From: Antedon mediterranea
Taxonomy: Eukaryota; Echinodermata; Crinoidea; Comatulida; Antedonidae
Direction: 5' to 3'
NCBI RefSeq assembly: GCF_964355755.1
Contig: NC_092671.1
Span: 15,046,501-15,110,500, forward strand
DNA length: 64,000 nucleotides
Positions 18,334 to 54,524 of the stretch are shown here, piece by piece. The number at the start of each line of letters is the position of its first letter. The stretch's first letter is position 1. The position numbers were made by a program, and so were the translations under genes. The notes below the pieces were generated by a model, which saw only the letters and a list, made by a program, of their open reading frames with translations, did not search any database and was not told where the DNA came from.

Positions 18334-19318
18334 TAATTTATTTTTTGTCTTATATAGCGCCTAATACAATGTTTCTTTACAAACAAAAATGATCCATAAA
18401 ATATTCTAAAATAACCAAAAAAAAGGAAGCATTTTCACCGCTCCGTTCTCCAGCTCTTTGAAGCTCCCATGGGAGCTCGCTGGAACAGTATTCACAGGAT
18501 CTTAATTGAAATAGCATCTGTCTATCCTATCCTACTGTACCAAAATTTGAAGATTATGTCTATTGTGATTTTATCATCATTATTGAACACAGTAGCAACT
18601 AATTCAATTGCATTGTTATTAGCATCAAACAATTTGTGCAATCTCCAAATATACATTACTATATGGTGTGGTGATAGTAATACTTCCTTCTGTAATGCCT
18701 ATAAACACTATAGCTTGCCAACTGTATAATAATAATAATTTACCCAGTGATGATACTGTACTATACACTTCACCATTAGACCAGTGGGATCTTTGATAGT
18801 ACAGTAGGTTCAAATCTGATAAAATTCAATTCATTTTAATTATGTAAAAAAAAAGTGACTCGACAGTTACTTCTGTTTACCAGCTACATTAGGCTTACAA
18901 AAGCAAGCTAGGTTAGGCCGTCCACGAGAGGACATTCAACTCGAGCTACTTAGGTAGTGCATTGTTTCTCTCTTTTAATCATAATTCACCATAACATGTA
19001 CATTTAAGACAAGGAATGACCTGGATTAATATTATTTTAAAAGTAATGTATGCAATTATTTGTACAAAACGTCCAATATTGTAGGGAATACAGTAGGTCT
19101 TTAACAAAATGTAATAATATTACAGTATTAATTATTATCCTACTCTTTTTCGTTGCTTTGTTAATGTTACACAGTACAGTGAATAAATAATGAATGATTA
19201 TTGTTTTGTCTTTACAGGTAAATGAGATGACTTTGATTATGATCAGCATTTAATAAGGAAATCTTCAATAATAACAACAAACTAAAATCTATCTGCTTTT
19301 GTTCTCACTATTGTAAAA

Positions 19319-20458
19319 ATGGCGCTTCCAAAAGCGAGTGTTTTGTTGGTGCTTTTTGCAGCTACTGCACTACTGTACATAGGAATCATTTACATTGATC
19401 AACCCGTGTCTAATATACATTATGGTGTAGAAGTTGCAGAAGGACAATATGGTGTTATCTGTAAAGATTGTAATAAATACTGTTATACGTCGCCATACAA
19501 TAAGAAGATGGTACCACTTCCTGAAGAGGAGTTGCATCAAATTGGTTGCGAAAAAAGATTACCACAAGCTTTGGTAATCGGTGTAAAAAAATCTGGTACA
19601 ACAGCGCTCAAACATTTTCTCAGTTTTCATCCGCAGTTAGCTTCCCCTGTTGATGAGGTGCATTACTTTGATAATCGTTATTTCATGGGAATTGATTGGT
19701 ATATATCGCAGATGCCGTATGCTTTAAGGAATCAAACGGTGTTAGAAAAAACGCCGCGCTACTTTGTGTGGGCTGATGCACCCGAACGGGCGAGCAGGGA
19801 CTTGTCGTCAGATTTACGCATGATTGTGGTTTTACGAGATCCTATTCCACGTGCTGTGTCCGACTTTGTTCACATAAAATTTAAAGATAACTTGAAAAAG
19901 ATCGCGGAAAATGGTGGAAAACCTGTGAAACAGATAGTTTTACCATTAACTGCAGAATTAAAGAAAGTGAGAGATAAGCAGAAAGTGTCCGATGACGTTC
20001 ACAATAAAGCTATTGGCAGCTCATTTTATGATGTTGTTGAATCTTTTGAAGAATCTGTGATAGACCCTGACGGAAATGTAAAAGGACACAATGCTTTAGT
20101 GGATACCGGAATATATGTGAAATATTTAAGACGGTGGTATGAAAAATTCCCACGCGATCAAATACTTGTAATGGATGGACTAGACTTGATTAAAAACCCA
20201 TATAAAGCAATGAAGTCTGTAGAAGAATTTTTAGGCCTAAATTCTCATTTTACTGAAAAACATTTTTATTTTGATGAGGAGAAACATTTTTTTTGTTTAG
20301 CTCTTCCAATAAAAGCATGCATGAGTGCTTCAAAAGGTCGAACACATCCTGAGGTTTCAGAAGAAGTCATGGCTAAATTACGAGAATTTTACAAACCATA
20401 TGATCAAGAACTTGAAGAGCTAACAGGACAGACCTTCTCATGGGTTCAGAGGGATTAG
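19319..20458 (+). CDS. HS3ST-like sulfotransferase (type II Golgi membrane protein)
   Basis: 379 residues, predicted PAPS-dependent glycosaminoglycan sulfotransferase related to heparan sulfate glucosamine 3-O-sulfotransferases, acting in the Golgi lumen. An N-terminal signal anchor (about residues 6-25) precedes a Cys-containing stem (Cys48, 51, 55, 77). The 5'-phosphosulfate-binding loop is VIGVKKSGTTAL (86-97; HS3ST usually has GVRKGGT). The catalytic-Glu region is DEVHYFD (112-118, Glu113). The 3'-phosphate-binding motif is VLRDPIPRAVSDF (171-183). A Cys326-Cys334 pair and KGRTHP (339-344) match the HS3ST C-terminal loop. N138-Q-T is a potential glycosylation site. The ATG is in context AAAATGGCG, 100 bp after an acceptor-like TTTACAG, so the 5' UTR is probably spliced while the coding region is one exon. 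Members of the wider family with other substrates cannot be excluded. Confidence 0.9.
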   Translation: MALPKASVLLVLFAATALLYIGIIYIDQPVSNIHYGVEVAEGQYGVICKDCNKYCYTSPYNKKMVPLPEEELHQIGCEKRLPQALVIGVKKSGTTALKHFLSFHPQLASPVDEVHYFDNRYFMGIDWYISQMPYALRNQTVLEKTPRYFVWADAPERASRDLSSDLRMIVVLRDPIPRAVSDFVHIKFKDNLKKIAENGGKPVKQIVLPLTAELKKVRDKQKVSDDVHNKAIGSSFYDVVESFEESVIDPDGNVKGHNALVDTGIYVKYLRRWYEKFPRDQILVMDGLDLIKNPYKAMKSVEEFLGLNSHFTEKHFYFDEEKHFFCLALPIKACMSASKGRTHPEVSEEVMAKLREFYKPYDQELEELTGQTFSWVQRD

Positions 20459-38500: not shown

Positions 38501-41088
38501 GTATTCTAACCCTTCCTAACAAAATGTTATATGCAAATGGTTTTTCCCGCAAACAGGAAAGCTGTGGTCAGTAACATACCATTATATGCAAGAGACTTAA
38601 CATAATGTGTCTTAATTTTGTCCACAGAAAACAGGAAGGCTGTGGTTGCTAACATACCATCAATAAAAAGTTTTGGTCATGCACCATCCGCTATCTCATT
38701 TATCACGATGGAGGATGGTGAACAGTACTGTGAATTTCAGTTCCAAGATGAAAACTGCACCGATATCAAAAACAAGAAACAAAAGGCGGAAAAACCAGAT
38801 ATGTATGCCCCTTGTCCTGGAAAACTTAAAAATCCACTCCAGAAAAATTTCCTATATACAGTAGCATCATTTATCGTATTTGTTAGTACTGCAACATTCC
38901 TATTGCTTCCAACATGTGTAATAATGTTAGTTTTGGTTCCAGTTGCATATATTATTAGAAAAATAATTCGCTGTTTTGCAAATACTTGTAATTGCTATGC
39001 ACCATGTTGCTGTTATACAGCAAATTGGCTCACAGACGATGAGAAACACTGGCTAGATGATCCAAGTTTGGAAAAGCCTGTAGTTCAAGCGTTACTTGAG
39101 GTCGAAGGTCGTATGGAAACGTCAAGATTAAAATCATTAATTTTATCGCGTGTTGTATCAAAAGAAAACAAGCAAGGAAAGAAACAGTTTCAGCGTTTTA
39201 CTCAAAAAATAGTTTGCCTTAAGTCTGGTAGTATTTGGGTTAATGATCTCAATTTTAATATTGACAATCACGTTTTTGACGCACCCCAAACTTTTAATAA
39301 TATAGAAGATTTACAAGAATTTATTTCACAAATATCAACAAAACAACTACTATTTGGCAGACCACTGTGGGAAGTATGTGTATGTTATGTAGGAAAGGGA
39401 GAAAACATAAAGACATATCTCCTATTTCGGATTCATCCATGCATGACTGACGGTATTAGTCTTGTTGAAATTTTACGCAAGTTCTTAGCAGATGAACATG
39501 AAACTTCGGATTTTAAATCTAGGTATGGCCGTGAAGCACTCATGTTCAATAGCGTACAAGCATTTTGTGTCGGTCTTATTGTGTTTTTGTCTCATTTACT
39601 TGGAAAACGCGACGTTTTTATGCCATGTATAAAGCCTATGAACGGAGAGAAAAAATTATTATGGTCGGATCCAATCAGTCTTGCCTCAGTGAAACGTATA
39701 AAGCTTATAACACGAATGTCTCTAAACGATGTGTTGTTGTCAACAATATCCGGTAGTTTACGTGGCTATTTCAAATCGCAAGGTATTACAAACCCGTGCA
39801 ATCTTCATGCTAACATTCCTGTTGATTTTCGCAGTTCTACGCAGCTGCTTGAACTCGGTAACCGTTACACGTTTGCACGTGCACCATTAACTACTAATAT
39901 TGAGGGCACTATTCCACGTCTTTGGGAATTAAAACATCAAATGCTGGAAGTAAAAAACTCAGGTGACCCTATGGTTATATATAATGTAATGAAAGTAATA
40001 AGAGTTCTTTTCCCGCAATTTATTTCCAAAGGTGTTCTAGCTAGTCTTTATAACCGTAGCTTTTGTACAATAGCAAATTTACCAGGATCTGAAACAAAGT
40101 TGAGTCTGGGAGGTTTCAAGATACAGTCAATCGTCTACTGGATGCCTACAAGAGACAAGGTTGTTATGAGTTTCTCAGCGATAACATATGCAGATGAGCT
40201 ACGTGTTGGATTACTTGTCGACAAAGCTGCAGTTCCTGATCCTCAAATAATTCTTTGCGAATTAAAAAAACAGGTTTGTTTAATGACATATATTTTATTA
40301 TGTGTATTAAATTAGAGGCAATTTAGCTTGAAGAAACCTCATGGATACAAAGGCTTGATTTGAACCTAGATCTTGAGATTTGAGATTTTCATATTCTAGG
40401 AACATATTATTTTACCAGTTTGCAATCATTCATTTAAATATTTTTAATTAACATGTTTAAAAAATGTATTTGAAATTTTATGATTTTAAAACAAATGATA
40501 TCCATTTATTATTATATTATAATCATAATATTTTATTATTATTTTAAATAAATTTGTTTATTTCAGTTTGCAGTGATAACTGACATTTTACAATACCGAC
40601 GCATCCCTGGAGAGAAAAGGCCACGTACACTAGATGATAATGAATATGAGGTCAGTTTGTGTGAGCCCTAATGCCTATCTTGTGAACTAAGTTCCCATAT
40701 ATACCCTACACTACACTTTATTTGTTTCTTAAAACAAAGCAATGGTTCAACATATATTCTGGTTTTAAATACCAAAATGAATACTTAATTGAAACCCAAT
40801 TTATATGTACTATTAATAGTGTATTAATTATTAAAAAAAGATAAAACATTTTATATATTTTAGGATGAAGATGACCCTCTAGATGAAGAAGTACGGCATC
40901 CAAAGCTGAAACAGCCATCGGAGCATGAGGCTCACACATCTCAAATGCGCCCTCTGTCGGGTCCGAACATTGCCTTATCAACAATTATTGCAAATACCCA
41001 GGTAGATTTAGAGGAATCTAAAGTAATTGAGAAAGTAAACAATGCTGAAAATCAAAACTTTTCACCATGCGTAGAGCGTAAATGTTAA
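32506..41088 (+). CDS. WS/DGAT-like O-acyltransferase with altered HHxxxDG motif
   Basis: Predicted membrane-associated acyltransferase of the wax ester synthase/diacylglycerol acyltransferase family. I assembled five exons by splice phase: 32506-32533 (MSFFAITAK plus one base), 36420-36491, 38628-40273, 40567-40650, 40864-41088 (stop TAA), about 684 residues. After an acidic N-terminus, a hydrophobic hairpin (FLYTVASFIVFVSTATFLLL and beyond) suggests ER-membrane insertion. Family features: LFGRPLWEVCV, the active-site region RIHPCMTDGISLVEIL (His303, Asp308-Gly309), MSLNDVLLSTISGSLRGYF (Asn400-Asp401), NIPVDFRSS and IANLPGS near the C-terminal domain. The family motif is HHxxxDG; here the second, catalytic-position His is Pro304, so activity is doubtful or altered. 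Exons 4-5 add an acidic tail. The 28-nt first coding exon is inferred (context CAACCATGT, donor GTAAGT) and is the least certain part. 5' noncoding exons may exist. Confidence 0.83.
34790..34949 (+). mobile_element. 5'-truncated Penelope-like fragment with 22-bp target duplication
   Basis: Second copy of the 6680-6848 repeat, starting at GGGCTAGTGTTGCCCGAAAG, so the CTGATGA half of the hammerhead core is missing. A 22-bp sequence at 34768-34789 is repeated exactly at 34950-34971 around the insert, a target-site duplication showing retrotransposition into the first intron of the acyltransferase gene. Confidence 0.8.
35482..35665. mobile_element. MITE, family C
   Basis: 184 bp with perfect terminal inverted repeats AAGGCCAATTTACACAGAC / GTCTGTGTAAATTGGCCTT and a GC-richer core. 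It lies in acyltransferase intron 1. Confidence 0.85.
35770..35897. repeat. 64-bp tandem duplication
   Basis: Two essentially identical 64-bp copies starting GTTTAGCCAATGACTGTACG. A smaller 16-bp doublet (TTAGAAAGGCTCAAAT) follows at about 35937-35967. Confidence 0.9.
37888..38239. mobile_element. MITE, family D
   Basis: Ends TTAAAGATGTATTGTCCCCC and, inverted, TTAAAGATATATTGTCCGCC. About 350 bp, in acyltransferase intron 2. A diverged reverse copy lies at 57640-57860, sharing the order TTTACCTGA, TTTAAAGCAAAAAATTG, AACAGTTTATTTT and CATTAAAACTGCAAAA-type words. Confidence 0.7.
38548..38586 (+). pseudogene. Decayed duplicate of the start of acyltransferase exon 3
   Basis: AAACAGGAAAGCTGTGGTCA and the following AACATACCAT closely match AAACAGGAAGGCTGTGGTTG and AACATACCAT at the beginning of the real exon (38629 on), 80 bp downstream. 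It keeps a CAG that could act as a weak alternative acceptor. Confidence 0.6.
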
Positions 41089-45309: not shown

Positions 45310-45400
45310 CTTATCATCCAATTGGTTCAGTTTTATCTTATCATTTGCTTCTGGAAATTCCCAAATCCCATCATAAACAATAAAACTGAGTTGCTTTCGA
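45310..45400 (+). promoter_or_regulatory. Degenerate kappaB-type promoter of IFIT-like gene 1
   Basis: CCAATTGGTT, then CTGGAAATTCCCAAA (a one-base-off kappaB palindrome at about 45352-45363), then AT-rich ATAAACAATAAAA in the TATA position and TTGCTTTCGA. The order and spacing match the modules upstream of genes 2 and 3 although the surrounding flanks differ, which supports function. Confidence 0.5.
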
Positions 45401-45933
45401 ATAATTAGTGCAAATATAGCTACATGTTAAAGATTGAATCGAACATTTTGGAATAATTTTGCAAGTGTGTTTTTTTTGTACGTAGTAAGCCATTAATTAA
45501 AGAGAATAGGTAAGCACAGTACCCATGTATTATGATTGCACGTAACACGAATGATGTAATAGGCCTATTGTAGATTATGCTTTTTTCGTACACCTTTGGA
45601 ATGAAAAGGACTAAGTAGCGCAAACGCCTATATTATGGCAATTTTGCGATTTATAATAATCTATTTTATAATTTTTTTCCAGCATAAAATTATGTATGTA
45701 TTAACATAACTCTATAGGGAGAGTTGGACCTACTGAACCTGCGTCTCCGCCACTCGTCTGATCTCTTTGATAAATTATTTGCATATCTGCAACTTCCTTT
45801 ACTCCGATTTGCTTTGTACTTTATTCTTAGTTGAGGCTTGTATGTATGACAAGATAAATGTAAGAACATAACTTCATTTGTTAATGTATAGGCCTAATTT
45901 ATTCTTATTAGATATCACCTGTACTTGTACAAT

Positions 45934-47472
45934 ATGACGTCATTAACAGACTTACAAAACCAGCTTCAGGGATTTCCCTGTCACTTTATTTGGGAACTTG
46001 AAAAGAAGTCGATCAAACAATTCGGATCTCTGGTGAAGCTTATTGACGAGCATATCAGCGATTCTCCTGCAATGGTAATTGAGGGATTGTTGTTCAAAAG
46101 CTACCTTTTCTTTTCGGAGTTCAGAGGAAATGCAGAAAAGAACAAAGCCGGAGCAATGGAATGTATCGAGGAAGTACGCCGTAAGATTCGAGAGGAAGAT
46201 CCATCCAAACAGCCCAATAATAATGGTTATTTGGCAATCGCTATTGCTCTTGAAGCCTGGTTCAACCATCGTGACCAGGATAAGCTCGAAGCTAACATTC
46301 GGGAACTGCAGAGGCTTGAATCACTCTATGAGGATGGATCACCAGAACATAATATGTTTAAAGGAAGTATCCACGCAACAAAGGGGTTTGCTTTGACACG
46401 TGTTGGTATGAATCGGTATTCTGAGAGTATTCAAGAGTTTGAAACAGCATTGGAATTATGCCCAGGGGAAAAAGACTGGCTCTTTTCAGTCGGCCTTGTG
46501 AGGTGGAGATTAGCTAAAGCCGCAGTTGTTAATCGGAATGGATTATGTGATGGTATGGGAAAAGTAGAAAGTATTTTCAATGAGGTTATAAAATTGAATC
46601 CTCAGCACAGCTATGCAATGGTTTTGATTGCAGAAATAAAACGAAGAAAAAAAACATTTCCAAGAGCACAATACTATTTAAAATGTGCTTTAAAAGTAGA
46701 ACCAGTACGTCATCATATATTAGGACAGGCAGCATCAGTGTACAGAAAGATGAAACAGTATGAAAACGCCCTGCGTGTTCTACATATCGCCGAGAAAATG
46801 GAAGGGTGTGGTTCTTTCATTTTTCACCAATTATACCTAGTGTATCGCGATATTTCATATAACGGTATTGCTGGATATAGTCCACCCAAGCTGGATTATC
46901 TCCAACTATCAATTGATTTGAATCCTTCAAATCTTGCTGCAAAAATTGATCGTGCCAATGAACTCTCGGCTACAGTACATGCTGAAGCTGCCGAAGAATA
47001 CTTCAACCATATTCTAGACAACGTAGAAAACGACACAGAGTCAGTGATTGTCGTCACTTACCAGTTTGCTACGTTCTTCCAAAAACAAAATAAAAGCAAC
47101 GAAGCAATTGGTCAGTTTCAAATAATTGTAGACCGAGCGTTAAATGAATGTAAAGAAGACGGTGGTCCGCCATTCACTTTCTTTAGAGAGATTAATTGGA
47201 GGGTAAAAAAGTCTATCGAAAGCATCATAGAACATCATGAAAATGTGCTTACAGACGATGCAATGGATATAAAGTCACGACTATTGCTAGCAGACTTAGA
47301 AAAGAAACTTGGTAACACAGAAACTGCTTACAAGCACTATCAACAAATACTTGACTTGGGATTGAACATTAACGAAGAACGCAAACGGACTATTCTACAA
47401 TACTTGGCTTCCGCCAAAAATGAAAACGTTGGTGACGTTGATGGCATAATTGTAGCCATAAAACACTTGTAG
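45934..47472 (+). CDS. IFIT-like TPR protein, tandem copy 1
   Basis: 512 residues, a cytosolic all-helical tetratricopeptide-repeat protein resembling vertebrate interferon-induced proteins with TPRs (IFITs). Vertebrate IFITs bind non-self RNA ends or act as scaffolds in innate immunity; that role is an inference here. The N-terminal LQNQLQGFPCHFIWEL matches the IFIT LxxLxCHFTWEL signature (Cys16-Leu22). The KGFALTRVGMNRYSESIQEF segment (about 150-169) aligns with the IFIT EGWALLKCGGKNYERA region. Further TPR-like pairs lie near 225-258, 260-293, 370-403 and 450-483. The ATG at 45934 is chosen because it aligns with the ATGs of copies 2 and 3. The coding region is uninterrupted, as in vertebrate IFITs with a short 5' exon. 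A 5' UTR acceptor is probable just upstream (TTATTAG at 45904-45910). Confidence 0.88.
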   Translation: MTSLTDLQNQLQGFPCHFIWELEKKSIKQFGSLVKLIDEHISDSPAMVIEGLLFKSYLFFSEFRGNAEKNKAGAMECIEEVRRKIREEDPSKQPNNNGYLAIAIALEAWFNHRDQDKLEANIRELQRLESLYEDGSPEHNMFKGSIHATKGFALTRVGMNRYSESIQEFETALELCPGEKDWLFSVGLVRWRLAKAAVVNRNGLCDGMGKVESIFNEVIKLNPQHSYAMVLIAEIKRRKKTFPRAQYYLKCALKVEPVRHHILGQAASVYRKMKQYENALRVLHIAEKMEGCGSFIFHQLYLVYRDISYNGIAGYSPPKLDYLQLSIDLNPSNLAAKIDRANELSATVHAEAAEEYFNHILDNVENDTESVIVVTYQFATFFQKQNKSNEAIGQFQIIVDRALNECKEDGGPPFTFFREINWRVKKSIESIIEHHENVLTDDAMDIKSRLLLADLEKKLGNTETAYKHYQQILDLGLNINEERKRTILQYLASAKNENVGDVDGIIVAIKHL

Positions 47473-48317
47473 ACTCACTGTGCTGTATTTACAACAGGTG
47501 GTACAATGTTCTACAAATAAACACTGAACTAAATTAATTTTATTAGACCTAATTCTGTCAAAGTATAGATTTTATCCCATAAAAGCAATCAAAATACGTC
47601 CATTTAATACTTGAGAGATGGCGCTACATCTTCACTCCCCATGATCCATTGTTATATGCTGTATGATTCTTTTTCTGGTTTCGACCGGGATAAAATCCTC
47701 AAATTCGATTGATTGACTGACCTATTCATTGTGGAAATAGATATTTAAAATACATGGGACTCGGCTGTACGAGTCAAGACGGGTGTGGCCCAGTTTATAG
47801 TATTTAACACTCGGTGTGTGGCACGATCAGCCGTTGACATAACGTGTTTGAAAAAGAGACAATTGAGTGTCAGGAGACATAAACAGTAACCAATGTGAGA
47901 GTCAGCAGACATGAAACTGCCGGTATTATTGTCTCTTGACATGATGCCGTACTTGAGTTGGGTGTCGAAGCGATAATATTATAACTATATTATATAGAAT
48001 TCGTAGAACTTTTCTTTTTAAAGAAAATAAATAATTACTAAAGATAGGATATTATAAATTTAATTTCATTGTTTAAAAGTATTATATTCTATACTGTAGC
48101 TATACTTTTATTTTGTGTATTATAGTCATAAATAAGTTACAGGTGAAACCAAAAGAAACTATCAACGTTTTCATCAAGAAAACAGTCTACACACAATTAT
48201 TGATTTATAAATTTATAATGGATAAGGCCTATTATTTCATCCAAAACAAATTGTGTCTTTTTTGTTCTTCTAATATTAGAGAAATGGTTAATAAAATGTC
48301 ATTTATTTACTTCCTTG

Positions 48318-48432
48318 TCCGATTGGTTAATACCATCACGTGACCCGTCGTTCGGGAAATTCCCACGTCACACCTATAAAATTGCTTTCGACACTACGAT
48401 ATACTGTCTTAAATGGTTGATTGAAATGGAAA
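48318..48432 (+). promoter_or_regulatory. Promoter of IFIT-like gene 2: kappaB site plus TATA box
   Basis: In order: inverted CCAAT-type box CCGATTGGTTAA (48319-48330), E-box TCACGTGA (48336-48343), perfect palindromic kappaB site GGGAAATTCCC (48354-48364), CACGTCAC, TATA box TATAAAA (48375-48381). An ISRE-like GAAATGGAAA (48423-48432) lies just after the expected TSS. The compact arrangement suggests Rel/NF-kappaB-driven induction; binding is inferred from consensus only. Confidence 0.65.
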
Positions 48433-48750
48433 GCGACGAAGACTAATTTCTATACAATGAGGTCGAAATAATATATATTCCAGTACTGTATACTGTACAG
48501 TATATACTGTACTTGTTAGGATTGTTGTTCTAACTTCACAGTCACATGGGAAGAGTAGGAAATGTAACTAGGAAGGGTAGGTAGGCCTATTTATTGTTTG
48601 TCGTAATGACGGATAGGCTGCAGATGATGTAGGCGTAGGCATATACATTTTTATACATACAGGATTTATTTGCATGTTACTCCCACTTGGCGGCAAGTAA
48701 TCAATTTCTGATGGCTGTTTTATGTTAAAAAGTATTGTTACAAGTAAAAA

Positions 48751-48943
48751 ATGGCTGCTTTCCACCGTCTACAAGTAAGATCGTTATCCTCTAAATAATC
48801 TTATAATTTTTTAGAAATAAATTTAAAATGAAAACAACTTAAAATTGACAAATTAAAATACTAGAATTCAAGTTTCAAGCACTATATTATTTGTATATAT
48901 AAACATTAAAATATAACTTATTCAATTATAGCTGGTGTTTTAA
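48751..48943 (+). promoter_or_regulatory. Upstream ORF spanning the 5'-UTR intron of IFIT-like gene 2
   Basis: ATG at 48751 (context AAAATGG) opens 8 codons ending at donor GTAAGA (48775). After the intron 48775-48931 (157 bp, acceptor TTATAG) it continues CTG GTG TTT TAA, encoding MAAFHRLQLVF. The uORF stop lies 3 nt before the main ATG at 48947. The same arrangement occurs in gene 3. Confidence 0.5.
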
Positions 48944-48946
48944 GGT

Positions 48947-50485
48947 ATGGCGTCATTAACAGACTTACAGAGCCAGCTTCGGGCATTTCCCTGTCACTTT
49001 ATGTGGGAACTTGAAAAGAAGTCTATCAAACAATTCGGATCTCTCGTGAAGCTTATTGACGAGCATATCAGCGATTCTTCTGCTATGGTAATTGAAGGAA
49101 AATTGTTCAAAAGCTACCTTTTCTTTTCGGGGTTCAGAGGAAATGCTGAAAAGAACAAAGCCGGAGCAATGGAATGTATCGAGGAAGTACGCCGTAAGAT
49201 TCAAGGGGAAGATCTATCCAAACAGCCCAGTAATAATGGTTATTTGGCAATCGCTATTGCTCTTGAAGCCTGGTTCGACCGTCGTGACCAGGATAAGCTC
49301 GAAGCTAACATTCGGGAACTGCAGAGGCTTGAATCACTCTATGAGGATGGATCACCAGAACATAATATGTTTAAAGGAAGTATCCACGCAACAAAGGGGT
49401 TTGCTTTGACACGTGTTGGTATGAATCGGTATTCTGAGAGTATTCAAGAGTTTGAAACAGCATTGGAATTATGCCCAGGGGAAAAAGACTGGCTCTTTTC
49501 AGTCGGCCTTGTGAGGTGGAGATTAGCTAAAGCCGCAGTTGTTAATCGGAATGGATTATGTGATGGTATGGGAAAAGTAGAAAGTATTTTCAATGAGGTT
49601 ATAAAATTGAATCCTCAGCACAGCTATGCAATGGTTTTGATTGCAGAAATAAAACGAAGAAAAAAAACATTTCCAAGAGCACAATACTATTTAAAATGTG
49701 CTTTAAAAGTAGAACCAGTACGTCATCATATATTAGGACAGGCAGCATCAGTGTACAGAAAGATGAAACAGTATGAAAACGCCCTGCGTGTTCTACATAT
49801 CGCCGAGAAAATGGAAGGGTGTGGTTCTTTCATTTTTCACCAATTATACCTAGTGTATCGCGATATTTCATATAACGGTATTGCTGGATATAGTCCACCC
49901 AAGCTGGATTATCTCCAACTATCAATTGATTTGAATCCTTCAAATCTTGCTGCAAAAATTGATCGTGCCAATGAACTCTCGGCTACAGTACATGCTGAAG
50001 CTGCCGAAGAATACTTCAACCATATTCTAGACAACGTAGAAAACGACACAGAGTCAGTGATTGTCGTCACTTACCAGTTTGCTACGTTCTTCCAAAAACA
50101 AAATAAAAGCAACGAAGCAATTGGTCAGTTTCAAATAATTGTAGACCGAGCGTTAAATGAATGTAAAGAAGACGGTGGTCCGCCATTCACTTTCTTTAGA
50201 GAGATTAATTGGAGGGTAAAAAAGTCTATCGAAACCATCATAGAACATCATGAAAATGTGCTTACAGACGATGCAATGGATATAAAGTCACGACTATTGC
50301 TAGCAGACTTAGAAAAGAAACTTGGTAACACAGCAACTGCTTACAAGCACTATCAACAAATACTTGACTTGGGATTGAACATTAACGAAGAACGCAAACG
50401 GACAATTCTACAATTCTTGGCTGCCGCCAAAAATGAAAACGTTGGTGACGTTGATGGCATAATTGTAGCCATAAAACACTTGTAG
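48947..50485 (+). CDS. IFIT-like TPR protein, tandem copy 2
   Basis: 512 residues, same architecture as copy 1 (CHFMWEL at 16-22; TPR-like helices through the rest). It differs from copy 1 mainly in the first 115 residues (for example S45, K52, G62, Q86-G87, L90, D111-R112) and at a few C-terminal sites (T430, A463, F490, A493). The central region is identical at DNA level. The start ATG follows a 5' UTR exon beginning at 48932. Predicted inducible innate-immune TPR protein. No signal peptide or membrane segment. Confidence 0.9.
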   Translation: MASLTDLQSQLRAFPCHFMWELEKKSIKQFGSLVKLIDEHISDSSAMVIEGKLFKSYLFFSGFRGNAEKNKAGAMECIEEVRRKIQGEDLSKQPSNNGYLAIAIALEAWFDRRDQDKLEANIRELQRLESLYEDGSPEHNMFKGSIHATKGFALTRVGMNRYSESIQEFETALELCPGEKDWLFSVGLVRWRLAKAAVVNRNGLCDGMGKVESIFNEVIKLNPQHSYAMVLIAEIKRRKKTFPRAQYYLKCALKVEPVRHHILGQAASVYRKMKQYENALRVLHIAEKMEGCGSFIFHQLYLVYRDISYNGIAGYSPPKLDYLQLSIDLNPSNLAAKIDRANELSATVHAEAAEEYFNHILDNVENDTESVIVVTYQFATFFQKQNKSNEAIGQFQIIVDRALNECKEDGGPPFTFFREINWRVKKSIETIIEHHENVLTDDAMDIKSRLLLADLEKKLGNTATAYKHYQQILDLGLNINEERKRTILQFLAAAKNENVGDVDGIIVAIKHL

Positions 50486-51301
50486 ACTCACTGTGCTGTA
50501 TTTACAACAGGTGGTACAATGTTCTACAAATAAACACTGAACTAAATTAATTTTATTAGACCTAATTCTGTCAAAGTATATATTTTATCCCATAAAAGCA
50601 ATCAAAATACGTCCATTTTACTTGAGAGATGGCGCTACATCTTCACTCCCCATGATCCATTGTTATATGCTGTATGATTCTTTTTCTGGTTTCGACCGGG
50701 ATAAAATCCTCAAATTCGATTGACTGACTGACCTATTCATTGTGGAAATAGATATTTAAAATACATGGGAGATGCTGTACGAGTCAACACTCGGTGTGTG
50801 GCACGATCAGCCGTTGACATAACATGTTTGAAAAAGAGACAATTGAGTATCAGGAGACATAAACAGTAACCAATGTGAGAGTCAGCAGACATGAAACTGC
50901 CGGTATTATTGTCTCTTGACATGATGCCGTACTTGAGTTGGGTGTCGAAGCGATAATATTATAACTATATTATATAGAATTCGTAGAACTATTCTTTTTA
51001 AAGAAAATAAATAATTACTAAAGATAGGATATTATAAATTTAATTTCATTGTTTAAAAGTATTACATTCTATAGGCCTACTGTAGCCTATTAACTTTTAT
51101 TTTGTGTATTATAGTCATAAATAAGTTTCAGGTGAAACCAAAACTATCAACGTTTTCATCAAGAAAACAGTCTACACACAACTATTGATTTATAAATTGA
51201 TAATGGATAAGGCCTATTATTTCATCCAAAACAAATTGTGTCTTTTCTGTTCTAATATTAGAGGAAATGGTTAATAAAATGTCATTTATTTCCTTCCTTG
51301 T

Positions 51302-51363
51302 CCGATTGGTTAATACCATCACGTGACCCTCTTTCGGGAAATTCCCACGTCACACCTATAAAA
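51302..51363 (+). promoter_or_regulatory. Promoter of IFIT-like gene 3: kappaB site plus TATA box
   Basis: Same module as gene 2: CCGATTGGTTAA, TCACGTGA, GGGAAATTCCC (51336-51346), CACGTCAC, TATAAAA (51357-51363). The ISRE-like motif of gene 2 is reduced to GGAATGGAAA here. Confidence 0.65.
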
Positions 51364-51713
51364 TGTTAATGCGTTCGACACAACGATATACTGTCTTAAA
51401 TGCTTTATTGGAATGGAAAGCGACTATAAGACTAATTTCTATACAATGAGGTCGAAATAACATATTCCAGATACTATACAGTATATACTGCACTTGTTAG
51501 GATTGTTGTTTTAACCTCACATGAAAAGAGCCATAGGTAGGAAATGTAACTAGGAAGGGTAGGCCTATTTATTGTTCGTCGTAATGACGGATAGGCTGCC
51601 GATGATGTAGGCGTAGGCATTATACATGGTGTATAAGGATTTATTTGCATGTTACTCCCACTTCGGTGGCAAGTCATCAATTTCTGATGGCTGTTTTATG
51701 TTACAAGTAAAAA

Positions 51714-51906
51714 ATGGCTGCTTTCCACCGTCTACAAGTAAGATCGTTATCCTCTAAATAATCTTATAATTTTGTAGAAATAAATTTAAAATGAAAACAA
51801 CTTAAAATTGACGAATTAAAATACCAGAATTCAAGTTTCAAGCACTATATTATTTGTATATATAAACATTAAAATATAACTTATTCAATTATAGCTGGTG
51901 TTTTAA
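51714..51906 (+). promoter_or_regulatory. Upstream ORF spanning the 5'-UTR intron of IFIT-like gene 3
   Basis: ATG 51714-51716, donor at 51738, intron 51738-51894 (157 bp, the same length as in gene 2), uORF stop TAA 51904-51906, main ATG 51910. The encoded 11 residues are identical to those of gene 2. Confidence 0.5.
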
Positions 51907-51909
51907 GGT

Positions 51910-54057
51910 ATGGCGTTATTAACAGACTTACAGAGCCAGCTTCGGGCATTTCCTTGTCACTTTATGTGGGAACTTGAAAAGAAGTCTATCAAACAATTCG
52001 GATCTCTTATGAAGCTTATTGATGAGCATATCAGCGATTCTCCTGCTATGGTAATTGAAGGATTATTGTTCAAAAGCTACCTTTTCTTTTCGGAGTTCAG
52101 AGGAAATGCTGAAAAGAAAAAAGCCAGAGCAATGGAATGTATCGATGAAGTACGCCGTAAGATTCGAGAGGAAGACCCATCCAAACAGCCCAGTAATAAT
52201 GGTTATTTGTTAATCGCTATTACTCTTGAAGCCTGGTTCGACCGTCGCGACAAGAAGAGACTCGAATCTAACATTCGGGAGCTGAGGAAATTAAATTCAC
52301 TCTATGAGGATGGATCACCAGAGCATAATATGTTTAAAGGAAGTATCCACGCAACAAAGGGATTTGCCTTGTCACGTGTAGGTATGAATCGGTATTCTGA
52401 GAGTATTAAAGAGTTTGAAACAGCATTGGAATTATGCCCAGGGGAAAAAGACTGGCTCTTTTCAGTCGGCCTTGTGAGGTGGAGATTAGCCAAAGCCGCA
52501 GTTAAAAACCGACATGAATTTTGTCCCGATATGACGACAGTGCTAAGTATTTTCTATGATGTTTTAAAAATGGATTCAGAACATAGTCTCGCATTAGTTT
52601 ATATTGCAGAAATAAGACGTAGAAAGAAAAATATTCACAAGGCTAAACAATTCTTAAAGAATGCACTGAGGAAACATCCAGTACGTCAAAAAGTACTAGG
52701 TGAAGCAATAGGAGTGTACAGGAAGATGGCATGTTTTGATGAAGCCATAAGAGTTATAAATATCGCTGAACAATTAGAAGAGCCCAGTTCTTTCATTTAT
52801 CACCAAGCATATCTTGTGTACCGAGATATCTCAGCTCCAAGACATCGTGATCAATATTCACCCCCCAATATAGATTATCTCCAAAAAGCTATCGACACGA
52901 ATCCATCTAATCTTGCCGCAAAATTTGATCGCGCCAAGGAATTGATATATGCAAGGAAATACGATGAAGCTACCGAATACTATAATCAGCTTTTTGAAAA
53001 TTTTGAAGATGACCCAGAATCTGTGATTCGCATCAATTCTCAATTTGCTTTGTTCCTTCAAAAGCAAAAGAAACAAAATGAAGCTATTGATAAACATCAA
53101 ATGGTAATTGACGTGGCTTTAGAAGAATTTCTGGAAGATAGAGGTCCACCAATCATTTTCTTTATGGAGATTGATTGGGTGGTGAAACAATCTATTGAAA
53201 CGACCGAAAAGTTTCATGAAAAAGTGCTTAGTACCGATCTAAGAAATATACCATCACGATTACAGCTAGCAGAATTAAAAGACAAACTGGGAAATACAAA
53301 ACGTGCTTGTTGGCACTTTCAAAAAGCACTTGACTTAAACATTGACGAAGAACGCAGGTGGTATATTCTAGAATACTTAGCTGCTGTAAAGACAAAGAAT
53401 AAGACCTTAGACGACGTTGATGTCATAATTGAACATATGAAACAATTGAATATTTCGTATCCTAAGCCTGATGTTATAAATGAAAGGAAGGCAGCTCTAG
53501 CGGTGGAGAGAGGCAAAGTTGCACTACGTGATGATAAAAAAGAAGACGCTATTGAGTTGTTCAAGGAATCGACAACACTCGGTAACATTAATGGAGCAAA
53601 ACTTCTACTCGATGAGGTAAAACAAATGGACAGAGAAAATAGAAACGTTTATATCTATTGTGCCCACATTGATGTTTGCATTGAAAATAGTCTTGAAGAA
53701 GACAAGGAGCTATCAAATGAATTACAGGAGAATATATCAAAACTACTTTCTGCCGATTCTTCTTCTGTTGGTATTGTTTTACAAGATCTAAGAGAGGCAC
53801 AATTCAGAATGGAGCGTAGTGTACTACAAAACAGTGCGCAGCTCGTGTCTTTAAGAGTTGAGGTAATTCACAAATGTCGAACAATCCTCAACCAGACAAT
53901 GACCAAATTTAGAGATCGTCATTATAAAACTGTTGACAGTAGTTGTGATTATTTCAACATACCAAAGTGTTCGTCTGTTGATATTGCAAATAAAGTCAAG
54001 AAGAAACTCCAGACGTCATATAAGTGGGCTAAATTTAGTGAACGATTTCCATTCTAG
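51910..54057 (+). CDS. IFIT-like TPR protein, tandem copy 3 (longer, chimeric)
   Basis: 715 residues. Residues 1 to about 198 are almost the copy 2 sequence (CHFMWEL at 16-22). From VVN/VKN on (about position 52505) the DNA diverges sharply while the TPR architecture is kept (EHSLALVYIAEIRRRKKNIH, VRQKVLGEAIGVYRKMACFD and similar). A C-terminal extension of about 200 residues beyond the end of copies 1 and 2 contains another helical pair (ALAVERGKVALRDDKKEDAI) and a longer helical tail with no motif I recognise. It ends at TAG 54055-54057, but the frame continues open for six codons to a strong donor (GTAAGT at 54076) that would join in phase to 54297-54524. No transmembrane segment. Function inferred from the family: RNA-binding or scaffold protein in innate immunity. 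Confidence 0.88.
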   Translation: MALLTDLQSQLRAFPCHFMWELEKKSIKQFGSLMKLIDEHISDSPAMVIEGLLFKSYLFFSEFRGNAEKKKARAMECIDEVRRKIREEDPSKQPSNNGYLLIAITLEAWFDRRDKKRLESNIRELRKLNSLYEDGSPEHNMFKGSIHATKGFALSRVGMNRYSESIKEFETALELCPGEKDWLFSVGLVRWRLAKAAVKNRHEFCPDMTTVLSIFYDVLKMDSEHSLALVYIAEIRRRKKNIHKAKQFLKNALRKHPVRQKVLGEAIGVYRKMACFDEAIRVINIAEQLEEPSSFIYHQAYLVYRDISAPRHRDQYSPPNIDYLQKAIDTNPSNLAAKFDRAKELIYARKYDEATEYYNQLFENFEDDPESVIRINSQFALFLQKQKKQNEAIDKHQMVIDVALEEFLEDRGPPIIFFMEIDWVVKQSIETTEKFHEKVLSTDLRNIPSRLQLAELKDKLGNTKRACWHFQKALDLNIDEERRWYILEYLAAVKTKNKTLDDVDVIIEHMKQLNISYPKPDVINERKAALAVERGKVALRDDKKEDAIELFKESTTLGNINGAKLLLDEVKQMDRENRNVYIYCAHIDVCIENSLEEDKELSNELQENISKLLSADSSSVGIVLQDLREAQFRMERSVLQNSAQLVSLRVEVIHKCRTILNQTMTKFRDRHYKTVDSSCDYFNIPKCSSVDIANKVKKKLQTSYKWAKFSERFPF

Positions 54058-54296
54058 TTGGAGTTTCTTGTTTCAGTAAGTATTTTCTTTTCGTTCTTAG
54101 CATTAACTAAACGTTGATTCAATTATTTTAGGTTTTTAGGTAATAACGTCTTTGTATGCAAAAATACAACAATTAAAACTCATGTGCCTATGCTCATATA
54201 AAAATAAGTATGTCTTTTTAAATCACCATTTCGCAATTTTTAGGACTACTCCTTTTTTTACTGGATAATAACAAATATTGTTTTTAATTAATTCAG

Positions 54297-54524
54297 ATTC
54301 AACCGGCATCCAACCCTAAAAAAAACAACTGGTTGTTTGCACTGTTGAGAATGGATAACTCAAATAAACACGAAAGTCCTTTAGGAGACAAGCTGAAAAT
54401 AAATGTGTATTCAGACGAGTTAGGAAACATGGCAGAGCGGGAGTTTCTAACACTTGATGTTGCACGAGAAGCTTGTGACAAGATTAAAAATATCTTAGAT
54501 GCATTTTATATGTACTTACCGTAA
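54297..54524 (+). CDS. Candidate terminal exon of IFIT-like gene 3
   Basis: Acceptor TTAATTCAG, then 75 open codons and TAA. It is in phase with the donor at 54076, giving a 221-bp intron. The protein has a coding-like composition (for example LGDKLKINVYSDELGNMAE is helix/strand-like, followed by an amphipathic REACDKIKNILDAF). Reaching it in frame requires passing the TAG at 54055. It could be 3' UTR, an alternatively joined exon, or the original C-terminus lost to a nonsense mutation. Confidence 0.4.
   Translation: MQPASNPKKNNWLFALLRMDNSNKHESPLGDKLKINVYSDELGNMAEREFLTLDVAREACDKIKNILDAFYMYLP

Follow-up and report, generated by a model that had tools for sequence, protein, structure and literature searches.

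Vertebrate IFIT proteins such as IFIT1 and IFIT5 (PDB 3zgq, 4hor, 5w5h) are superhelices of tetratricopeptide repeats (TPR) encoded in tandem clusters, and the mammalian genes are described as having two exons, exon 1 carrying the 5' untranslated region (UTR) and exon 2 almost the entire coding sequence, in the accessible part of a 2013 survey (PMC3688568). The same part of that survey places the origin of the family in jawed vertebrates together with interferon, reports no IFIT in sea urchin and rejects candidates from acorn worm and lancelet (PMC3688568). ZNFX1 (NFX1-type zinc finger-containing protein 1) is an unrelated antiviral protein that binds RNA, a helicase with zinc fingers. It is induced by virus in vertebrates, where STAT1/2, IRF1 and IRF9 motifs are described in its promoter (PMC11959080, available portion). 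The window analyzed here comprises 64,000 nucleotides of the crinoid Antedon mediterranea (NC_092671.1, positions 15,046,501 to 15,110,500 of the forward strand) and contains three tandem IFIT-like genes, g1, g2, and g3, each preceded by a kappaB-type site. Taken as a whole, the evidence is probably best explained by an invertebrate IFIT family, its products being RNA-trapping TPR superhelices under the control of Rel/NF-kappaB and a partner factor. No report of an invertebrate IFIT was found in the accessible portions of the open-access literature, including PMC5787515, PMC9334734, PMC6723221, and PMC3750612.

All three proteins start with the CHFxWEL N-terminus noticed in the initial annotation, and all three are encoded by long single-exon open reading frames:

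45934–47472, + strand: g1, IFIT-like gene; single coding exon, 512 residues, without the g3-type C-terminal extension.
48947–50485, + strand: g2, IFIT-like gene; single-exon open reading frame, 512 residues, protein 96% identical to that of g1.
51910–54057, + strand: g3, IFIT-like gene; long open reading frame, 715 residues, with a C-terminal extension and an in-frame TAG at 54055.
54297–54524, + strand: 3' exon following the g3 TAG, sharing 65% identity with the final exon of C10.

Searches of the genome with g3 and with one distant copy yielded 14 or more IFIT-like copies in which a start is recognizable, copy counts here being lower bounds. They fall into group A (g1, g2, g3, C4, C1, and C10) and group B, which consists of C2a to C2e on C2 (3.81–3.87 Mb) and C7a to C7c on C7 (15.93–15.97 Mb). 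Reading frames are broken in several copies, which makes this a birth-and-death family. Two remnants that have no start codon, one on C5 and one at C2:3830033–3830358, are outside the 14 upstream regions considered below. The C5 remnant (L011; C5:9342523 and 9345231) has kept a C-terminal stretch and a promoter that hardly differs from the C2a promoter, the middle being gone. An alignment of ten paralogues was used for the profile and for the residue comparisons; it omits g2, which is near-identical to g1, and C2d, C2e, and C7c, whose frames are broken.

Reciprocal sequence search and predicted fold agree that these proteins are IFIT homologues, as had been proposed from the letters. Queried against PDB sequences with its first Met removed, g1 matched IFIT5 at 4e-12 and IFIT1 at 2e-6, compared with 0.017 for the best natural non-IFIT TPR protein and 1.5e-6 for one designed TPR protein. 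IFIT5 was likewise the top match of the N-terminal 207 residues of g1 alone (3.9e-4) and of C10 alone (2.6e-11). A profile comparison, named in the initial annotation as a check, points the same way, the ten-paralogue profile giving 8e-18 for IFIT5 and 2e-15 for IFIT1; an engineered TPR array, which matches in the repeats only, comes at 1e-17. Group B is linked to the family through paralogue searches and this mixed profile rather than singly. Conversely, residues 9–404 of human IFIT5, searched against the whole 354-Mb genome, recovered six group-A genes, namely the tandem three and three dispersed ones (E 2.2e-12 to 4.2e-5), and the next match among the nine candidates scored had an E of 0.46. 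The model of g1 is of moderate confidence; it has a mean pLDDT (predicted local distance difference test) of 72 and a predicted template modeling score (pTM) of 0.61, with its first 37 residues below 50. With this model the first 14 rows returned by Foldseek were IFIT5 or IFIT1, and the first 11 rows of VIA-align were IFIT (Z 21.2 to 19.4) followed by LGN (Z 18.2), a small margin because TPR folds resemble each other; the best VIA fold match had a root-mean-square deviation of 5.4 over 408 residues.

Automatic names such as IFIT5-like are attached to invertebrate database proteins. It could be argued that a non-IFIT TPR family has converged on IFIT-like features and that the likeness stems from generic repeats. 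Above cut-off, Pfam gave only generic TPR or TPR-like families for the IFIT-like proteins, and NCBIfam gave only bacterial TPR families, all sub-threshold; the engineered array nearly equals IFIT5 in the profile search and heads the search with g3 alone, and the acorn worm and lancelet matches had been dismissed as non-IFIT in the part of the 2013 survey available (PMC3688568). We nevertheless regard such convergence as highly improbable and rejected generic TPR as the leading interpretation, since the N-terminal 207 residues of g1 and the reverse search, in which only these genes fell below E 0.4, both point to IFIT. The fold rankings also place IFIT first, and H19, W22, K144-G145, R186, and Y293-R294 are invariant in all ten paralogues.

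The residues of the RNA tunnel were compared by mapping IFIT5 positions through the g1–IFIT5 sequence alignment. Within the CHFxW motif, H and W are present in all ten paralogues, while C, and the F that follows H, are found in the same four, all of group A. R186 (IFIT5 numbering) is R in every paralogue, R294 is kept in all ten, and Q288 in nine; K150 is replaced by R in seven and by M in three, all three belonging to group B; and R260 and H287 are each kept in five of the ten, which are the five group-A rows. R186 and K150 have been termed critical for RNA binding by IFIT5 (PMC13197388, in part available), and R187 of IFIT1, the counterpart of IFIT5 R186, has been termed essential for RNA binding (PMC12543323, likewise in part). 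Binding of RNA 5' ends is thus likely for group A and less sure for group B, judging from these alignments. The family shares with the vertebrate IFITs the TPR superhelix and the tandem cluster, together with a single large coding exon that would follow a predicted 5' UTR intron; group A also shares the CHFxW motif and the tunnel residues R186, K150 (as R), R260, Q288, and R294. Several pocket residues differ from those of the vertebrate proteins, and g3 and other copies have an extra C-terminal extension and 3' exon without known relatives.

The regulatory sequences upstream differ from those of mammalian IFIT genes, in which interferon-stimulated response elements (ISREs) lie by the TATA box; here a kappaB site and a partner element occupy that place:

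45352–45362, + strand: kappaB site TGGAAATTCCC of g1; one mismatch to GGGAAATTCCC, with no TATA[AT] within the 45 bp after it.
48336–48344, + strand: partner element TCACGTGAC of g2, 10 bp before GGAAATTCC.
48354–48364, + strand: kappaB site GGGAAATTCCC of g2; perfect, 10 bp before TATAAAA.
48375–48381, + strand: TATA box of g2, TATAAAA.
48930–48931, + strand: AG of a putative 3' splice site (..tcaattatag) just 5' of the g2 ATG.
51319–51327, + strand: partner element TCACGTGAC of g3, 9 bp before GGAAATTCC.
51336–51346, + strand: kappaB site GGGAAATTCCC of g3; perfect, 10 bp before TATAAAA.
51357–51363, + strand: TATA box of g3, TATAAAA.

The perfect sites of g2 and g3 and their distance from the TATA box are exactly as originally described; for g1 the one-off site is present, but no TATA[AT] follows its core in the next 45 bp. 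With up to one mismatch allowed, GGGAAATTCCC has six matches in the window against 0.60 expected from shuffles, of which two are the palindrome read on the opposite strand and one (48981) lies inside the g2 coding sequence.

In 10 of the 14 copies (g1, g2, g3, C4, C1, C2a, C2b, C2d, C7a, and C7c) the core GGAAWTTCC is found once in the 1.3 kb preceding the start codon, at −481 to −1013, whereas 0.12 genes would be expected from shuffled upstreams, and it was not found in the remaining ~62 kb of the window. Pairwise comparison of 11 of the 14 upstreams (C10, C2c, and C2e being left out) gave 41–53% identity for 54 of 55 pairs, the exception being g2–g3 at 93.5%. The core has therefore been held while its surroundings drifted, and the kappaB cores are, on this comparison, footprints, that is, conserved promoter elements among paralogues; the claim of kappaB-type promoters stands in this form. 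The upstreams of g2 and g3 are recent copies, so that these two genes are not independent witnesses. This near-identity, the close repetition of the C2a promoter by the C5 remnant, and the fact that two of the three ZNFX1 copies described below with a CGCATGC composite are neighboring duplicates would suit the view that the shared sites are leftovers of recent promoter duplication and uninformative on function. That view we consider extremely improbable, given that the core is still kept across the other 54 upstream pairs, does not occur elsewhere in the window and, as part of a composite, precedes the unrelated ZNFX1 family.

In six of the ten core-bearing copies, TATA[AT] follows the core at a distance of no more than 45 bp. 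In 13 of the 14 copies the 55 bp preceding the ATG contain a pyrimidine-rich stretch with an AG, and C2b has the AG with a stretch that is not rich enough. These TATA and splice signals suggest that the transcript probably begins near the TATA position and that a 5' UTR intron follows a non-coding first exon. Such a structure would agree with the two-exon layout of mammalian IFITs, as would the position of the core 481–1013 bp upstream, although some paralogues have an additional 3' exon.

The initial annotation had also raised the possibility of ISRE-like input to these genes. The motif GAAATGGAAA is present at 48423, but it lies downstream of the g2 TATA box and is not kept in g3; ISRE-like 10-mers occur in 3 of the 14 IFIT-like upstreams against 1.37 expected, and the strict form in none. 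ISRE-like input to the IFIT-like genes was rejected, the motifs not being clearly enriched. An ISRE was not treated as defining an IFIT, because some vertebrate IFITs are without one according to the portion of the survey available (PMC3688568). The promoters resemble vertebrate interferon-stimulated promoters in having a short cis element near the TATA box of an immune effector family, and differ in that the element there is the ISRE and here a kappaB-type core. We classify the genes as homologues within the IFIT family whose regulation is of a new type, and not as interferon-induced genes. Domains of the relevant transcription factors were located in the genome: IRF-type DNA-binding domains at two places and Rel-type domains at four (11 PF00554 matches), both lower bounds, numbers that argue for the invertebrate host proposed initially.

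The kappaB core is accompanied by a partner element whose form differs between the two groups. In group A, TCACGTGAC lies 9–10 bp 5' of the core in g2, g3, and C4. The composite TCACGTGA-N3-20-GGAAWTTCC has eight matches genome-wide and none in either control direction; those at IFIT-like genes are g2, g3, and C4, with a spacing of N10-11. Two more, both N5, lie in the second of two ZNFX1 clusters (C8:11204442 and C8:11225677), and another, also N5, is on C9 about 2.5 kb before a Toll-like receptor (TLR) reading frame with leucine-rich repeat and TIR domains. On C11, TCACGTGA-N5-GGAAATTCC stands directly before the likely start of a MYND/DUF4470 gene (L032 278–2691; C11:6646777), which is possibly a new immune effector; the TLR gene and the MYND gene each represent one isolated case. 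The match at C1:35593570, which adjoins a tandem array and has a spacing of 16, was taken as chance.

In group B the partner is CGCATGC, and CGCATGC-N6-20-GGAAWTTCC has eight matches in the genome against one in the control. Six of the eight have a spacing of exactly N11, at C2a, C2b, the C5 IFIT remnant, and three ZNFX1 genes, of which two are neighbors at C8:8.50–8.52 Mb and the third is located at C8:11.196 Mb. In C7a and C2d the partner is present in looser form. The remaining two, at C6:7786507 (spacing 15, within a kinase coding exon) and C6:29471971 (spacing 8, no clear gene seen nearby), were taken as chance. Allowing one mismatch at N11 gave 19 matches against 4 in the control, those beyond the six perfect ones comprising a match on C2 that precedes an IFIT-like remnant by about 350 bp, eight in a C11 array, and four singletons. 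As the control also contained four, the singletons were treated as noise; downstream of them lie a Bcl-2 domain, a frame resembling the major facilitator superfamily (by eye), an unidentified frame, and nothing clear. The Bcl-2 family reading frame begins about 0.9 kb after its one-mismatch composite (L019; C2:35135179), an observation within this noise level. The C11 array (C11:9028459–9029108) is tandem with 89-bp spacing, and CGCATGC-N11-GGTAATTCC occurs in each of the eight units listed.

ZNFX1-domain loci number at least 12 and all are on C8, where they form a large local expansion in two clusters (8401736–8513296 and 11198844–11228533). Their identity is firm at the level of sequence: PF25396 was matched at 4e-33 to 2e-32 in the three genes with the CGCATGC-N11 composite, and the copy at C8:11.196 Mb matched human ZNFX1 at 2e-288. 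Five of the 12 loci carry a composite of the IFIT type (TCACGTGA-N5 or CGCATGC-N11), counting the C8:11204442 site toward the locus at 11216361, to which we infer that it belongs, a putative first exon lying about 4.4 kb after the site. GGAAWTTCC is found in the upstream stretch of 10 of the 12 loci, three of these ten having been chosen because of the core and several of the loci being near-duplicates of each other; L027 and L030 have none in the upstream stretch examined. The seven comparison loci around other composite matches (L013–L015 and L019–L022, ~47 kb) contained only one core besides the selected ones. The ZNFX1 genes played no part in defining the motif, and their appearance among its matches thus constitutes independent support. 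In the ZNFX1 promoter at C8:11.196 Mb (L018 ~286–315; C8:11196067) the ISRE-like GAAACGGAAACT is located shortly after the kappaB core, so that an IRF input may exist in ZNFX1.

Most likely, an immune signal would free Rel/NF-kappaB, a dimer of which would bind the core some 10–15 bp upstream of the TATA position, while a second factor would bind the CACG- or CGCATGC-type element at near-fixed spacing from the core. Together the two could load the TATA promoter, with the mRNA beginning in a non-coding first exon, and the products would be ZNFX1 helicases and IFIT-like TPR superhelices, the latter most likely trapping the 5' end of foreign RNA in a basic tunnel. That Rel binds, that infection induces these genes, and that their products bind RNA are all inferred, as is the first-exon structure, which was derived from splice and TATA signals only.

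The genes may instead be IFIT homologues with constitutive or developmental promoters, their core being bound by another factor such as a developmental Dorsal-like Rel or an unrelated palindrome-binder. The partner elements (TCACGTGA and CGCATGC) would fit this, as we take them to resemble the sites of USF/TFE or NRF1, which are housekeeping factors, and the MYND/DUF4470 gene also carries the composite. We judge it unlikely, however, because of the ten composite matches outside IFIT-like loci, five for each form of the partner, five are at ZNFX1 genes and one precedes the TLR, and because in vertebrates virus or poly(I:C) elicits a response from both IFIT and ZNFX1 as far as the available text of the sources goes (PMC3688568; PMC11959080).

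Several results weigh against an RNA-trapping IFIT family under Rel/NF-kappaB control. None of the IFIT5 pocket positions E33, T37, Q41, R253, and Y254 is conserved, and in place of Y250 nine of the ten paralogues have H, K, or R, mostly K or R; with such residues lost, 5'-end specificity may differ. On its own, g3 scores a designed TPR array (8.8e-11) above IFIT5 (1.3e-6), and C2b of group B has no PDB match at E up to 1. The fold model of g1 derives from three sequences closely related to each other, and TPR folds are promiscuous in their matches; structural comparison, a further check named at the outset, ranks IFIT5 and IFIT1 first with this model, but the g3 model was poor and the fold comparison is that of g1 only. 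Among the promoters, C10, C2c, C7b, and C2e are without an exact GGAAWTTCC in the 1.3 kb upstream, and no TATA[AT] follows the core in g1, C4, C2b, or C7c.

An invertebrate IFIT family of at least 14 copies would, if true, mean that the effectors preceded the cytokine. Beyond the family itself, we advance tentatively, and with slightly less than even confidence, the proposal that IFIT and ZNFX1 formed a pre-interferon antiviral battery read by Rel/NF-kappaB and a partner on a composite whose parts are a set distance apart (CGCATGC-N11-GGAAWTTCC, or the TCACGTGA form with N5 or N10-11), with IFIT older than the jawed vertebrates and later moved to IRF/STAT control. The composite would then represent a concrete and testable regulatory code for an interferon-independent antiviral programme, and it also flags the TLR on C9 and the MYND/DUF4470 gene on C11 as further candidate members.

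The organization of the tandem genes bears on their recent history. In 150-base windows the coding regions of g1 and g2 are 91–100% identical, the 3' flank being 76–99% and the 5' flank 37–56% identical; over coding region and 3' flank together (45934–48200 against 48947–51240), every window except one reaches 91–100%. This likeness in coding sequence and 3' flank and unlikeness in the 5' flank suggests gene conversion or partial duplication. The g3 protein is 67% identical to that of g1. Its C-terminal extension (residues 513–715) and the 3' exons are present in both subfamilies; for the extension and the paralogue 3' exons there was no Pfam match above cut-off and nothing convincing among PDB sequences. 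Between g3 and its 3' exon a GTAAGT donor (54076) and an acceptor whose AG ends at 54296 can be read from the sequence, and the limit of 54524 given initially for the region proved to be the stop of this homologous exon. Since the g3 TAG precedes the donor while the 3' exon is conserved, the last exon may drop from the product, or the stop may differ between individuals.

The window sits in a 40.9-Mb contig and is thus not a stray contaminant. A COX1 search, aimed at the mitochondrial code, gave no match. Ordinary neighbors of the cluster, identified by Pfam, are a sulfotransferase-domain gene (19286–20458) and a wax synthase/DGAT-domain gene (38606–40315). The palindrome TAGGCCTA occurs 22 times in the whole window against 0.55 expected under a first-order model, with seven of the occurrences lying within 20–24 kb.

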